A DNA stretch of 64,000 bases. It comes from Selenomonadaceae bacterium (GTDB taxonomy: Bacteria; Bacillota; Negativicutes; Selenomonadales; Selenomonadaceae). Below the pieces are notes generated by a model. The model ran no database searches. It saw only the letters and a list, made by a program, of their open reading frames with translations, and had not been told where the DNA came from. Below, one piece after another: positions 17,902-25,785 of the stretch. Position numbers and translations under genes: made by a program. The first letter of the stretch is position 1. Every line of letters starts with the position of its first letter. The stretch covers positions 124,001 to 188,000 of the forward strand of contig JAFWWC010000002.1 in the NCBI GenBank assembly GCA_017518105.1. The letters run 5' to 3'.

Positions 17902-18000
17902 TTGACAAACTCCCCACGATGGCGGGGGATTCTGCTATCAACAATACTTGCCCAAAAATTTAGGTCTTACGGTATCTCCTGCAAGGGTCGTTGCCCCAAC
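17902..18000 (-). ncRNA. IS200/IS605 right end: tnpB 3' tail and candidate omega-RNA scaffold
   Basis: From the last tnpB codons to GTTTGTCAA this 99-base segment is about 86% identical to 55918-56016. Shared blocks are CACCGTAAGAC, TAAATTTTT, CAAGT-TTG, GATAGCA and TCGTGGGGAGTTTGTCAA, with a CCCC/GGGG stem near the end. In IS605 elements the RNA scaffold that guides TnpB overlaps the tnpB 3' end and stops at the right end, followed by the guide; here the following bases are 17901 downward. Assignment is by homology between the two copies and known TnpB biology. Confidence 0.7.
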
Positions 18001-19092
18001 CCTTCTTGCAAAATGTTTATTGCCGCGTTTCTGTCTCGGTCGTGTTCCACGCCGCATTTCGGGCATTTCCATTTGCGAATCCTTAAATCTTTTACTTGCG
18101 GATTCTTTTCTCCGCAGTAATGGCATATCTGACTTGACGCAAAATATCTCTCCACTTCAATTACAACCGTCCCGAATTTGCTTGCCTCGTACCTTAATAT
18201 TTTCACGAAGTCACTAAAGCCCAAATCTAAAATTTTTCTGCCCCAAAGTCTTTGCATTCCTTTTACGTTCAAATTTTCAATGCAAATCGTGTCGTACTCA
18301 AGGCAAAGTCTTCGCGCCAATTTGAAGTGGAAATCGTGCCGCCGATTCGTCGTCTTCTTATACACTCTTGCAAGATTCAACCGCGCTCGTCGTCTGTTAT
18401 TTGAGCCTTTGCACTTGCGCGACAATTCCCGCGACGCTTTGGCTATCAGCTTTGAACTGTTCGAGAAAAACAGCGGGCTTGTTATGTCTTTTCCGTCCGA
18501 TGCCGTTAAAAACTTTTTTAATCCGAAGTCGAAACCGACGCTTTGACCTGTTCGCGTTTCTACTTCAAAATTTTTGGCGTCCGTCACCAAGTAAACGTAA
18601 ATATCGCCCAAAACTGTCCCGCTTTATCGTCACTGTCTTAATTTTTCCACTAATCCGCCGTGACTGAAAGTATTTGTATCTTTGCCCGTTGATTGTAATC
18701 GTACGGTTGTCTTCATCTAGTTTCCAACCCGTTTGTTTGAGTGTGAACGATTTATAACGTTTTACTTTTTTGAATTTCGGCGGCGAACAGCGAATTTTAC
18801 GGTTTAAATTTCCGAAATACAAATCAAAGGCTTTGTTGATTCTTTCTACAACATCTTGCACTGCTTGTGAGCCGAATTCCAAAAGATATTTGAACTTCGC
18901 GATTTTCTTTAGCTTAGTCAAATGTTTTTTGAGCTTGTTTTGATTTAAAAACTTGCCAAACAATTTGTAGTAGCGATTGTGGAGGGCAATGCAATGATTA
19001 TACGTCAAAGCCGCCGCATTTATCTGCATGTGGAGTTTGGCGTTGTGTTCCGACTTATAGAGTTTGAAACAAAATGTCTTCATTGCATTCAT
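17967..19092 (-). pseudogene. tnpB: IS605 OrfB/TnpB transposon-encoded RNA-guided nuclease, frameshifted
   Basis: Two frames join into one TnpB of about 370 residues. The N part (to 18565) contains the helical domain and RDSFGRY; the C part carries the RuvC residues: GFDFGLKKFL (Asp), CIENLNVKGM (Glu), DRDRNAAINI (Asp), and the zinc ribbon CHYC...CPKC. The break is at 18599-18601: removing one T from the run TATTTACG restores RYYVYLVTD, the usual TnpB reading. So one inserted base disables an otherwise intact gene. No tnpA (Y1) gene is next to it. The start (MKTFCFKL) follows AGGGGGATG. Left-end hairpin at 19136-19159. Confidence 0.85.
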
Positions 19093-19199: not shown

Positions 19200-19628
19200 T
19201 CAGCCCATGTGAACGCCTTTAACCAGAAGACGAGCCTTAGCTCTGGCGAGTGCCGCCTCTGCTCTGTCAATATCAATGTCTTCGTGGGCTTTTGGCGACT
19301 GTTTATAAGCTGTGACACGTTCATTAGCGCGTTGATAAGCAGATTTCGCCCGCTCAACGTCAATATCGTCAGGAATTTCCGCCGCGTCCGCTAGGATTGT
19401 AATTTTATCGGGCGTGACCTCCATAAAGCCGCCGCTGATAAAAAGTTTCGTCTCACCGCCGCCTTCCTTAATGCGCATTGCGTGCGGGATAAGCTCCGTC
19501 AAAAGATTTGCGTGCTTGGGCAAGATTCCCAGCTCCCCGACAATCGAACGGGTGATTAGCATGTTAATATCTTTTGCGTAGACTTCGCCTTTGTCGGGCG
19601 TGGCAACCTCAAGCAGGATTGTGGCCAT
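19200..19628 (-). CDS. atpC: ATP synthase epsilon subunit
   Basis: 142 residues: N-terminal beta-sandwich (LLEVATPDKGEVYAKDINML, GELGILPKHANLLTELIP, FISGGFMEV) and C-terminal helical hairpin (IDVERAKSAYQRANERV...). Epsilon couples the rotor and can inhibit ATP hydrolysis by extending its helices. It is the last gene of the operon, 3 bases after atpD. Length is normal for Firmicutes. Confidence 0.97.
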   Translation of the reverse strand: MATILLEVATPDKGEVYAKDINMLITRSIVGELGILPKHANLLTELIPHAMRIKEGGGETKLFISGGFMEVTPDKITILADAAEIPDDIDVERAKSAYQRANERVTAYKQSPKAHEDIDIDRAEAALARAKARLLVKGVHMG

Positions 19629-19631
19629 AAA

Positions 19632-21047
<1,416 letters not shown>

Positions 21048-21056
21048 TCAACTCCT

Positions 21057-22175
21057 TTATTCAAGCGCGTTGGCACCGCCGACAATCTCGTTAATCTCGT
21101 TGGTGATGCCCGCCTGCCTGACTTTGTTGTAGAAGAGATTGAGCCTGCCGACGAGTTCTTGCGCGTTGTCAGTGGCGTTGCTCATTGCGTTCATTCTGGA
21201 GGACAGCTCCGACGCCGCCGAGTGAAGCATTGCGCCGTAAATTCTCGTGGCAATTCTGCGTGGCATGAACTTATCCAACAGCGACACGACGTCCGGCTCG
21301 TAAATGTATTCCTCTTTGAGATTCGCGCTTGCCTTTGCGTAGTCGTCAGTGACAATCGGGAGCAACGTCACGTCGTCGGGCACGCAACTTATCGCCGACT
21401 TGAACTGAGTATAAATCAAAGTCACGTCGATAATCTCGCCGCTCGCGAACCGTTCCATGACCAAATCGGTAATCTCTTTGGCGTACTTGTATTGCGGACG
21501 CTCGCTTATGCCGTGATAGCTTTTGATGATATTATAGCCGCGTTGCTTAAAATGAGTGGTCGCCTTCCTGCCGACCGTGATAAGTTCGATTCCGTCAATG
21601 TAAGCCGCGTCGTTGTATTCGCGGGCAACGGAGACATTGGTACGGGAATCCGCGCCGCCTTGACGAGCCGCCGCCTTAGCCACGGAGCCTGTAGCAGTCA
21701 TTTGACGCTGTTGCTTTGGAGTCCGTTTACCCGCCGGCTTAATGCCCTTTAGCGCGTCGAAATTTTTCTTGTGGAAGTTCTCGTCGTCGCCGTCATCATC
21801 AAGGGAAGTGCTTGCCTCGGTGCCGTCGTACTCAATCGTATCGTGCGCCGACTTGAAGACGTTGCTTGCAAAAGAACCCGCCAGCCCCTTATCCGACGCA
21901 ATGACGATAAACAAGAACTTTCCCGCGCCCTCCTGTTGTTCAGCAATGAGTTCGTCGCGTGTCTTTATGAACGGGTGCTCGTACTCTTGCCCGCGCATTT
22001 GAGACATAACCCGCCGCATGATTTCCTTAGTCTTGGCGACGTAGGGGACGTTCGACAGCAGAGCATCACGCGCCGCATTGAACCTCGAACGCGCTATCAT
22101 GTCCATGGCGTTGGTTATCTTCTGGATGTTCTTGACGCTTTTAATCCGGCGGCGTATGTGTTGTAAATTTGCCAT
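21057..22175 (-). CDS. atpG: ATP synthase gamma subunit with a large insertion
   Basis: 372 residues against the usual 285-290. N-terminal coiled coil (IRRRIKSVKNIQKITNAMDMIA) and C-terminal helix (RIYGAMLHSAASELSSRMNAM, NKVRQAGITNEINEIVGGA) are well conserved, and ASDKGLAGSF marks the central domain. Between NVFKS (about residue 108) and LITVGRK (about 199) there are about 65 residues more than usual. The extra piece has an acidic part (LDDDGDDENF), a basic Lys/Gln/Arg part and an Ala-rich part; no Cys pair. It is not the redox loop of chloroplast gamma, which sits later. No frameshift is seen on either side. Confidence 0.95.
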   Translation of the reverse strand: MANLQHIRRRIKSVKNIQKITNAMDMIARSRFNAARDALLSNVPYVAKTKEIMRRVMSQMRGQEYEHPFIKTRDELIAEQQEGAGKFLFIVIASDKGLAGSFASNVFKSAHDTIEYDGTEASTSLDDDGDDENFHKKNFDALKGIKPAGKRTPKQQRQMTATGSVAKAAARQGGADSRTNVSVAREYNDAAYIDGIELITVGRKATTHFKQRGYNIIKSYHGISERPQYKYAKEITDLVMERFASGEIIDVTLIYTQFKSAISCVPDDVTLLPIVTDDYAKASANLKEEYIYEPDVVSLLDKFMPRRIATRIYGAMLHSAASELSSRMNAMSNATDNAQELVGRLNLFYNKVRQAGITNEINEIVGGANALE

Positions 22176-22188
22176 TTACGCCACCGCC

Positions 22189-23712
22189 TCATTCCGCAAC
22201 CTTGTAGGTGACTGTCTCTTTAAACTCGGTGATTGCCGCCTTCATCTCAGCCTCAAGTGCGTCGTCAAGTTTCTTCTTCTCCGCAATCTTTTTGCCGATG
22301 TCGGGATGATTAGCGTGCATGAACTTGATAAAGTCATTGTGGAAGGTTACGACTTTGTCAACGGGAATATCAGCCAAGAAACCTTTAACCGCCGTGTAAA
22401 TCGTCAAGACTTGGTCTTCAACGGCAAGCGGCGAGTACTGCGACTGCTTAAGCGTCTCAACCATGCGTGCGCCGCGGTCGAGTTGAGCCTTAGTCGCCTT
22501 GTCGAGGTCGGAGCCGAATTGCGCGAACGCCGCCAGCTCTCTGTACTGCGCAAGGTCAAGACGCATTGTGCCCGCAACTTGTTTCATTGCTTTAATCTGT
22601 GCACTGCCGCCGACGCGAGAGACACTCAAGCCAACGCTGATTGCCGGACGAATGCCGCTGTAGAAAGAGTCGGTCTCAAGCATGATTTGCCCGTCCGTAA
22701 TTGAGATAACGTTTGTGGGAATGTAAGCGGAAACGTCGCCCGCCTGAGTCTCGATAATCGGCAAAGCAGTAATGGAGCCTGCGCCGAGTCTGTCGCTTAA
22801 CTTCGCGGCGCGTTCCAAAAGTCTGGAGTGCAGATAGAAAACGTCGCCGGGATATGCTTCACGACCCGGAGGACGCCTCAACAGCAAGGACATTGCACGA
22901 TAAGCCGCCGCGTGCTTAGTCAAGTCGTCGTAAATGCAAAGGCAGTGTCCGTGCTTCTCGTACATGAAGTATTCCGCCATAGTGACGCCCGAATACGGCG
23001 CGAGGTATTGGAGCGGGGCAGAGTCAGCAGCCGTAGCCGCAACGACGATTGAATATTCCATTGCGCCATGGTCTTCCAACGTCTTGACGACGCGGGCAAC
23101 TGTCGACGCCTTCTGACCAATCGCCACGTAGACGCAGATACAGTTTTGACCCTTCTGGTTAATGATGGTGTCGATGGCGATAGCCGATTTGCCAATGCCG
23201 CGGTCGCCGATAATCAATTCGCGCTGACCACGACCAATCGGCACTAGTGCATCGATTGCCTTTAAGCCCGTCTGCAACGGCTCATGAACTGATTTCCTGT
23301 CCGCAATGCCAGGAGCCTTGAACTCAACGGGACGAGCCTTAGTCGTTTGAATCGGTCCCTTGCCGTCAATCGGACGACCGAGAGCATCAACGACGCGCCC
23401 AATCATATTTTCGCCGACCGGAACCTGCATAATCTTGCCCGTGCGTTTAACGGTGTGACCTTCTTTAATTTCGTTGTCGCGACCGAGGATAACCGCACCG
23501 ACGTTATCTTGCTCAAGGTTAAGGACGAGACCAAAAATATCGTCGCCGAAGTCGAGCAACTCGCCCGACATAGCCTTATCTAGCCCGTGAATGTGCGCAA
23601 TGCCGTCGCCAATCTCAATGACCGTGCCGACCTCGTCAACATTCAAGTCAACGTTGTAATTCTTAATCTGTTCCTTAATTATGGCAGTGATTTCATCTGG
23701 ATTTATCTTCAT
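22189..23712 (-). CDS. atpA: ATP synthase alpha subunit
   Basis: 507 residues. The non-catalytic nucleotide site's P-loop reads GDRGIGKSA (residues 169-177) where nearly all alpha subunits have GDRQTGKTA: Gln and Thr are replaced by Gly and Ile, and the next Thr by Ser. The visible [14 protein letters not shown] and C-terminal helices match the family. Alpha alternates with beta in F1. 13 bases before atpG. Confidence 0.98.
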
Positions 23713-23727
23713 ATTTGTTTCGTCACC

Positions 23728-24279
23728 TCAAATTCCTATCGAATTGACTGACAAAGAGTTTTGCAAGGCGCGTAGGCGACCGGCAGCTGAACCGTCGATT
23801 CGCTTATCGCCAATCTTTAAAATGAGTCCGCCCAAAATCGAAGCGTCCTTATGAGTGCGAACTTTGACCTTGCGTCCCGTCAGCGTCGTGAGCTTTTTGA
23901 TAAGCGCGTCTTGTTGTTTCTTGCTTAGGGTAAAAGCCGTTGTCACGTCCGCGATTAAAATTCCCTGCTCCTTGTTCTTCAGCGATGTAAAAATGTCGTG
24001 AATCTCCTTGAAGACGCCGATACGTTTCTTATCCACGAGGAGCATTAGGAAGTTCATGACGGTTGCGGAGATTTCTTTATCGAACGCCCGCTTGAGTAAA
24101 TCTTTCTTGGCTTGCTGAGGGACAAGCGGATTTTGGAAGAACTTCACGGCTTCTGGAATATCGAAGACATCAGCGCGAATCCTGCTTAAGTCTTTGTCGT
24201 AGCCGTCAAGGTTGTTCTCGTCCTTAGCAATCTCGAAAATCGCCGTGGCATATTTGGAGGCAAGCTGAATGTTAAGCAC
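23728..24279 (-). CDS. atpH: ATP synthase delta subunit
   Basis: 183 residues: helical N-domain (KYATAIFEIAKDENNLDGYDKDL) and the C-terminal family signature (VRTHKDASILGGLILKIGDKRIDGS). It binds the top of F1 and the b stator. 15 bases before atpA, 9 after atpF. Confidence 0.96.
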   Translation of the reverse strand: MLNIQLASKYATAIFEIAKDENNLDGYDKDLSRIRADVFDIPEAVKFFQNPLVPQQAKKDLLKRAFDKEISATVMNFLMLLVDKKRIGVFKEIHDIFTSLKNKEQGILIADVTTAFTLSKKQQDALIKKLTTLTGRKVKVRTHKDASILGGLILKIGDKRIDGSAAGRLRALQNSLSVNSIGI

Positions 24280-24288
24280 GTTGCCACC

Positions 24289-24789
24289 TCATTTCATATC
24301 CGCGAACATGTTCTTATCAAGCTTGGAAATAAAATCGTTGACGAGCTTGTCGTTCTCTTTGGTGTCGAGGTTTTTGGAAACGACCTTGCCAGCCGCCGCC
24401 AAACTAAGCGTGACGATTTGCGATTTCATTTCCTCAAAGGCGCGGTTGCGTTCGTTCTCAATCTCGGCTTGCGCAGTCTGCTTCATGCGTTCGATTTCCT
24501 TGCGCGTCTCGGCTACTGCGGCGTCGTGTTCTTGACGGGCGGTTACGTTTGCTTTCTCGACGATGGCTTGAGCTTTCTTTTGCGCGTCGGCGAGCTGTGC
24601 TTTGTATTGCGTCAAGGTCTGTTCGGCGGCTTTTTTATCGGCGTCCGCTTGTTCTAAGTCGTTGCGGATTTTGTCCGAGCGTTGTTGAAGGAGCCGCGCC
24701 ACTGGTTTATAAGCAACCGCACGCAAGATGACGACCAGAATTAAGAAGTTGAGAATTTGCGCGAGAATCGTTGCGTTAATTTCAATCAA
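24289..24789 (-). CDS. atpF: ATP synthase b subunit
   Basis: 166 residues: one membrane helix (ILAQILNFLILVVILRAVAY), then a long charged coiled coil reaching F1 (RSDKIRNDLEQADADKKAAEQTL and so on), ending near MFADMK. It is the peripheral stalk. Length and layout are typical for a homodimeric b. Confidence 0.97.
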   Translation of the reverse strand: MIEINATILAQILNFLILVVILRAVAYKPVARLLQQRSDKIRNDLEQADADKKAAEQTLTQYKAQLADAQKKAQAIVEKANVTARQEHDAAVAETRKEIERMKQTAQAEIENERNRAFEEMKSQIVTLSLAAAGKVVSKNLDTKENDKLVNDFISKLDKNMFADMK

Positions 24790-24828: not shown

Positions 24829-25077
24829 TTAAAGAAGCGGGTTGGCGTAGAGCATGATGAGTGCTACGACCGTTGCGATAATCGCCATAGCCTCGATTAA
24901 GCCGACGGAGATAAGCGTATTGGTGAAGAGCGTATTTTTGGCTTCGGGCTGACGGGTGATGCCGTCGATGAATTTGCTGGTAACAAGACCGTCACCGACG
25001 CCCGCGCCGATTGCCGCCAAGCCCATAGTAATACCTGCTCCCAAAAGTGCTGCTGCTACCATAATCGCATGTTCCAT
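24829..25077 (-). CDS. atpE: ATP synthase c subunit with two membrane carboxylates
   Basis: 82 residues, two helices joined by RQPEAK. Glu62 (in GLIEAMAI) is the ion-carrying carboxylate. The position corresponding to Gln32 of Ilyobacter tartaricus carries Asp29 (GVGDGLV), so each hairpin has two acids. Known examples of a two-carboxylate motif (Fusobacterium nucleatum) couple Na+; however, the residue after Glu62 is Ala, not Ser/Thr as in classic Na+ binders. H+ or Na+ specificity cannot be read from this. Confidence 0.97.
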   Translation of the reverse strand: MEHAIMVAAALLGAGITMGLAAIGAGVGDGLVTSKFIDGITRQPEAKNTLFTNTLISVGLIEAMAIIATVVALIMLYANPLL

Positions 25078-25107: not shown

Positions 25108-25785
25108 TTATTCTTCGGCGTGGTCTTCCCTTACAGCGTTTGCAAGGTAAGCCATGCTAAGCATTGTGAAGATAACCGCTTGCACACAGCTGATAAAGAT
25201 ACTGAACGCCAGCCACGCGACCGACGGTATCGGCATCCAAATCGGCATGAGCTTAAGCAAGACGATGATTAGGATTTCGCCCGCGAGAATGTTTCCGAAT
25301 AGACGGAAGGCAAGCGTTATCGGCTTTGCGATTTCTTCAATCATGTTGATGATTACGAAGACCGGCGTTGGTTGGAAGAAGTGCGCGATGTAATGACCGC
25401 CCTTGAAATACAAGCCGAGACAGTGGACGAGCACCACGACTAACAGCGCAAGCCCCAGCGTCGTGTTTAGGTCGTTAGTCGGCGACGCCATGAGCGGCAC
25501 CAGTCCGATTAAGTTGCTCGCAAGCAAGAACATAAACAGCCCGACGATTAGCGGGGCAAGACTTCTGCCGCGGCGACCCATCATTGCATCGATTTGACTG
25601 TGGAGCCATTCGATAATCATCTCGACGAAGATTTGCCAGCCTTGCGGGACGACCTTTAAGTTTCGTGTGGCAAGGCACGCGACCGCAATCACGATTATCA
25701 TTGCTAGCCACGTCATTTTTAGCGTCTCCCAGTTGAACGTCAAGCCGAGGAAAGTTATCGTCTCGCGGACACCAATTTCATGCAT
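25108..25785 (-). CDS. atpB: ATP synthase a subunit
   Basis: 225 residues. Membrane helices and the conserved block FRLFGNILAGEI with the essential Arg in the stator half-channel are clear. An upstream ATG in another frame stops quickly; ATG at 25785 follows GGAGGTGA. The c-subunit gene follows after 30 bases. Forms the proton/sodium path with the c ring. Confidence 0.96.
   Translation of the reverse strand: MHEIGVRETITFLGLTFNWETLKMTWLAMIIVIAVACLATRNLKVVPQGWQIFVEMIIEWLHSQIDAMMGRRGRSLAPLIVGLFMFLLASNLIGLVPLMASPTNDLNTTLGLALLVVVLVHCLGLYFKGGHYIAHFFQPTPVFVIINMIEEIAKPITLAFRLFGNILAGEILIIVLLKLMPIWMPIPSVAWLAFSIFISCVQAVIFTMLSMAYLANAVREDHAEE

Follow-up and report, generated by a model that had tools for sequence, protein, structure and literature searches.

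The gamma subunit of the ATP synthase encoded in the window, by which we mean the whole 64,000-nucleotide stretch of DNA analysed here, carries a 76-residue insertion (residues 116-191) in the loop that joins helix alphaA to strand beta2 in its Rossmann domain. The insertion is genuine sequence under purifying selection, and for this reason a functional role is plausible. We tentatively read it as an extension of the rotor foot that is specific to this lineage and maintained by selection, with a close rival in the tolerated growth of an exposed loop. The coordinates of all features are given in Table 1.

Table 1. Genes of the atp operon and parts of the gamma insert, with positions in the window
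Feature	Position	Strand	Evidence
atpG, ATP synthase F1 subunit gamma, 372 aa	21057..22175	-	ORF, PF00231, TIGR01146, Foldseek
atpB (a)	25108-25785	-	ORF list
atpE (c)	24829-25077	-	ORF list, PF00137
atpF (b)	24289-24789	-	ORF list
atpH (delta)	23728-24279	-	ORF list
atpA (alpha)	22189-23712	-	ORF list
atpD (beta), DELSEED region EELSDDD	19632..21041	-	ORF list, sequence comparison
atpC (epsilon), C-terminal helical domain intact, candidate partner	19200..19628	-	PF02823 + PF00401
76-residue insertion, residues 116-191, helix alphaA / strand beta2 of Rossmann domain	21603..21830	-	anchor spacing, alignments
Acidic segment, residues 119-132, predicted disordered	21780..21821	-	net charge, pLDDT
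Conserved motif ENFHKKNFDAL (132-142), predicted helix 135-142	21750..21782	-	dN/dS, AlphaFold
Basic Ala/Gly/Ser-rich variable middle, residues 143-182	21630..21749	-	net charge, dN/dS, pLDDT<50
Conserved acidic exit segment VAREYNDAAYIDG, residues 183-195	21591..21629	-	net charge, dN/dS
Companion insertion ahead of strand beta1, ~9 added residues (75-83), helix 73-82	21930..21959	-	spacing, AlphaFold

The atp operon is of the H+ type and, according to the ORF list, shows the standard gene order, with a single atpG between atpA and atpD and with atpA, atpH, atpF, atpE and atpB products of normal length. An adaptation to Na+ was discarded, as the Quinella enzyme is called H+-coupled in a published analysis (PMC9585023). 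Window gamma matched PF00231 with E=1.4e-85 and 288 bits (cut-off 39.9), in two stretches with a break before residue 194, and TIGR01146 with 280.2 bits (curated cut-off 194.45). AlphaFold secondary structure and Foldseek give the fold of gamma, a coiled coil plus a Rossmann-like domain, and the best Foldseek matches of the model were all gamma chains. The spacing between SNVFK and VGRK is 92 residues in window gamma versus 16 in nearly all other Selenomonadaceae. The earlier note had placed an insertion of about 65 residues at 21594-21839, which corresponds to gamma residues 113-194; the insertion is indeed there, while its size has to be raised to about 76 residues. Its description as in frame and normal in codon use also held, as GC3 is 0.61 in the insert against 0.69 in the core. 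A further insertion, which adds 9 residues at around 75-83 just before strand beta1, had been overlooked: the HP-to-SDKGL spacing is 26 instead of 17 residues, and the longer form occurs only in the main clade of insert-bearing proteins.

The same in-frame insert is present in more than 40 distinct proteins from independent rumen and gut MAGs, which dispels the concern that relatives might lack it. Among named records, the nearest are Quinella sp. 1Q5 (97%), 2Q5 and 1Q7, together with many rumen/gut Selenomonadaceae MAGs, and the sources include studies on goat, sheep, deer, reindeer and buffalo. As the insert-bearing proteins come from several host animals and different research groups, an assembly join inside atpG, also feared at first, is excluded. 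More broadly, the idea of an artefact or a non-translated element (an assembly join, an intein-like element or a translational bypass) draws on the unusual size of the insert only; set against the many independent MAGs, the coding-type conservation and the absence of border repeats, its probability is close to negligible. An intein or mobile element was rejected in particular because the insert is too short, varies in length, has borders without repeats and gave no Pfam match. We also set aside an origin by replication slippage, for the present sequence holds no direct repeats.

To place the gain, we built a gene tree of 98 gamma proteins with the insert columns removed, its root being arbitrary and its outer branches long. 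One clade (100/96) gathers all insert-bearing Quinella plus the divergent carriers L026, L157 and L077, and it is adjoined by the four same-genus genomes without the insert (G003, G032, G170 and G183). The simplest reading of these sequences is that the insert was gained once, on the stem of the Quinella clade that bears it, and was not lost in the sampled clade. Within the clade the insert amounts to some 58-81 extra residues. The alignment of Negativicutes gamma subunits that had been proposed in the earlier note thus gives a divided answer: the insert is conserved in the Quinella clade and is not class-wide, with independent insertions elsewhere.

The acidic, then basic and Ala-rich character ascribed to the insert was confirmed by the net charges of 43 sequences, with a median of -6 in the acidic segment, around 0 in the helix, +4 to +10 in the middle and -3 to -7 in the exit segment. 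This order (acidic, helix, basic Gly-Ser, acidic) is constant across the 43 sequences, and its broad outline persists in the divergent subclade, where the letters are mostly different. Two AlphaFold runs of gamma with different alignments both gave the helices 73-82 and 135-142, with pLDDT values of around 78-80. In both runs pLDDT fell below 50 at 121-128 and from 148/149 to 186/192, and most of the insert outside helix 135-142 is predicted to be disordered.

We then calculated Nei-Gojobori dN/dS over 40 distinct genes. The gamma core gave 0.04-0.07 and the insert around 0.25, values that are rough in absolute terms given a synonymous divergence of about 1.4, with a clear contrast between regions. 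The helix motif ENFHKKNFDAL (computed over residues 134-143) is as constrained as the core (0.06), residues 180-195 gave 0.18, and the variable middle, at 0.34, is weakly constrained. This last value, the predicted disorder and the variable length within the clade would suit an explanation nearly as likely as the one we favour, namely that a solvent-exposed foot loop grew by drift and was tolerated, a few residues at its ends having become structurally needed and the rest being an entropic tail without a regulatory role. Under such drift one would not look for a helix motif constrained like the core, a charge order kept through sequence turnover or the lack of any loss among the sampled genes of the main clade.

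A further point against drift is the gamma-specific acceleration that accompanied the gain. The stem branch takes up a share of the tree length of 0.118 in the gamma core (0.108 with the insert flanks masked), in comparison with 0.048 for alpha, 0.028 for beta, 0.053 for delta, 0.050 for b and 0.070 for epsilon; the intervals on these fractions, derived from ultrafast-bootstrap trees, are rough. On the branch of the gain, the evolutionary rate of the gamma core was thus roughly doubled, and no such rise was seen in alpha, beta, delta or b. This acceleration could alternatively reflect relaxed constraint. At otherwise conserved sites, the changes fixed in the clade number 8 in helix 1, one in the linker and 7 in the C-terminal helix, where four lie at the helix base (303-318). 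One more affects residue 193, which adjoins the insert, and the Rossmann strands of the insert-bearing clade have none.

Regarding the partner subunits, the DELSEED region of beta is the same as in insert-free relatives, and a matching change in it was therefore dismissed. Epsilon retains its C-terminal helical domain, as seen by PF00401 and in the sequences, so that a loop compensating for the loss of this domain was likewise discarded. As a separate observation, the tblastn match of window epsilon to the atpC genes of L061, L063 and L067 stops near residue 113 while the flanking sequence continues, and in these three the second C-terminal helix of epsilon may have diverged or be spaced differently.

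The insert loop presumably lies at the end of the Rossmann domain opposite the contact with beta DELSEED, a contact that we take to be made by the DKGLAG loop, as by its E. coli counterpart (Cys87). By Rossmann topology, the helix-to-strand loops would share the N-terminal edge of the sheet, opposite the DKGLAG loop. In the alignment, the insert replaces the loop that holds S109 of PS3 gamma (a Cys in 4xd7). This residue (S107, or S107C, in older numbering) has served for bead attachment with a minor effect on activity (PMC13272679), a point in favour of tolerated loop growth; no bead-site mutants under E. coli names were found in our literature search. In P. aeruginosa, the inhibitory helix of epsilon binds a cleft of gamma at residues 96-132, with the helix start there (PMC12796488). 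P. aeruginosa gamma residue 113 aligns with window gamma 196, and the cleft spans the insertion point.

Gamma inserts have been characterised in other lineages. The mycobacterial gamma loop (M. tuberculosis gamma 165-178), which suppresses ATP hydrolysis (PMC5874750, PMC11672644), resembles the window insert in being a lineage-specific Rossmann insert at a helix-to-strand loop, and by topology both would lie on the same sheet edge. It has 12-14 residues and follows the third Rossmann helix, whereas the window insert has 76 between alphaA and beta2; aligned to 8j0s, it falls at around 243-248 of window gamma, away from the insert. Moreover, epsilon is truncated in mycobacteria and intact in the window, and the function of the loop has been tested in mycobacteria, while the window insert is known from sequence. 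This loop and the epsilon-binding cleft of P. aeruginosa lie on or near the part of gamma that carries the insert. The redox loop of chloroplasts and cyanobacteria likewise interrupts the gamma Rossmann domain and has been linked in those organisms to the control of ATP hydrolysis. It is located after LLPL and before the C-terminal helix, and the alignment places the window insert in another loop, as the earlier note had held. The redox loop forms beta-hairpins that reach DELSEED, in contrast with the mostly disordered structure predicted here, and in plants it bears a Cys pair (CDxNGxC), while no insert-bearing protein has a Cys at 111-195, in line with the Cys-free insert described before. 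The wrong site and the missing Cys led us to reject the identity of the insert as a redox loop.

These comparisons bear on the suggestion, made in the earlier note, that a loop close to the rotor could act as a brake. In its mechanical form, the loop would reach the stator (the beta/alpha head or the peripheral stalk) and slow or block rotation as in chloroplast CF1. Chloroplast, cyanobacterial and mycobacterial gamma inserts do reduce ATP hydrolysis (PMC8106487, PMC6597759, PMC5874750), and a disordered tether of 76 residues could extend outwards. But the site differs from that of the chloroplast loop and lacks its Cys, DELSEED is unchanged, no corresponding acceleration is seen in b or delta, and beads at the same loop do not stop PS3 F1 (PMC13272679). 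We judge the brake improbable; a clash with beta in particular is unlikely, given the distance of the site from beta, the unchanged DELSEED and the tolerance of beads there. A weaker form, in which epsilon or the c-ring would mediate a modulation of ATP hydrolysis, is conceivable in view of the positions of the mycobacterial loop and of the P. aeruginosa cleft.

Long gamma loops are found elsewhere in the family and beyond. In Selenomonadaceae genus g27 (L152-L156), the alphaA-beta2 loop is longer by 22-51 residues, graded in number and unrelated in sequence to those of the window, an expansion independent of the Quinella insert. Other Bacillota families have inserts at exactly the same loop (L179-L181) or after LLP (L183); together, the g27 and L179-L181 inserts measure 22-61 residues and lie on separate tree branches. 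In genera g28, g34 and g50 (L139-L151) gamma is also very long (379-421 aa), although the additional ~95-130 residues, Ala/Glu/Lys-rich and then Pro-rich, lie after LLP at the chloroplast redox-loop site and not in the loop of the window; shorter post-LLP inserts occur in related genera (L160, L161). Outside Selenomonadaceae, large gamma inserts are rare: one of the 110 sampled class genomes has a large-insert gamma from a standard-scoring gene (G057, 340 aa, post-LLP site), and alphaA-beta2 inserts were detected in 3 of the 109 sampled phylum genomes. A description of the Quinella insert was not found in our literature search, with subscription papers outside its coverage, nor was one of the g28/g34/g50 inserts in the searchable papers. 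Independent, graded expansion at both loops also suits drift, and long loops at two sites in one family suggest easy tolerance, which counts against the reading that we favour.

That reading, which we hold tentatively, is that the insert is a selected extension of the rotor foot most likely tuning epsilon switching or foot/c-ring coupling. Both added pieces, helix 73-82 and the insert, would lie along the N-terminal sheet edge. Helix 135-142 would dock on the gamma foot and hold a charged tether beside the C-terminal hairpin of epsilon and the c-ring face. The tether could then set how readily epsilon adopts its inhibitory position, or adjust the coupling between foot and c-ring, and ATP hydrolysis would be limited in a fermenting anaerobe. 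In support of this we count the constraint on the insert and on its helix motif, the charge order kept in 43 sequences, the predicted helices, the single origin, the acceleration of the gamma core and the fixed changes in the lower part of the coiled coil, as well as the intact epsilon C-terminal domain, the P. aeruginosa cleft and the analogy with the mycobacterial loop. The predicted disorder of most of the insert, the weak constraint on its middle and the tolerance of the site to beads speak against it. A tether with segregated charges and a short conserved helix also looks like a binding motif, and the loop might bind something outside the enzyme (the membrane surface, another enzyme or a small molecule) and so localise or assemble the ATP synthase. 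We find this very unlikely: the insert has no Pfam match, permanent attachment is hard to reconcile with a loop that turns with the rotor, and we know of no binding partner.

A bolder version of the foot-docked reading, which we regard as doubtful, is that tether and docking helix together make up a new rotor-borne regulator of the epsilon switch or of c-ring coupling that evolved in Quinella. If true, and taken with the long inserts that sibling genera have at the chloroplast site, Selenomonadaceae would be a family in which rotor regulation evolved several times. Few parts of this universal machine are as constrained as gamma, and its characterised inserts in plants, cyanobacteria and mycobacteria control wasteful ATP hydrolysis. 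Here, dozens of species in a rumen genus that is abundant but uncultured have retained an insert of this size, and in related genera two gamma loops have expanded in parallel. Together, these inserts are a natural experiment that bears on which loops of the rotor are open to change and what such change serves.

Directly downstream of atpC, we also observed a gene for an IS605-type OrfB/TnpB transposase (17967-19092, minus strand). It is split into two overlapping ORFs, 17967-18611 (with OrfB_IS605 and Cas12f1-like TNB domains) and 18565-19092, and is apparently frameshifted.
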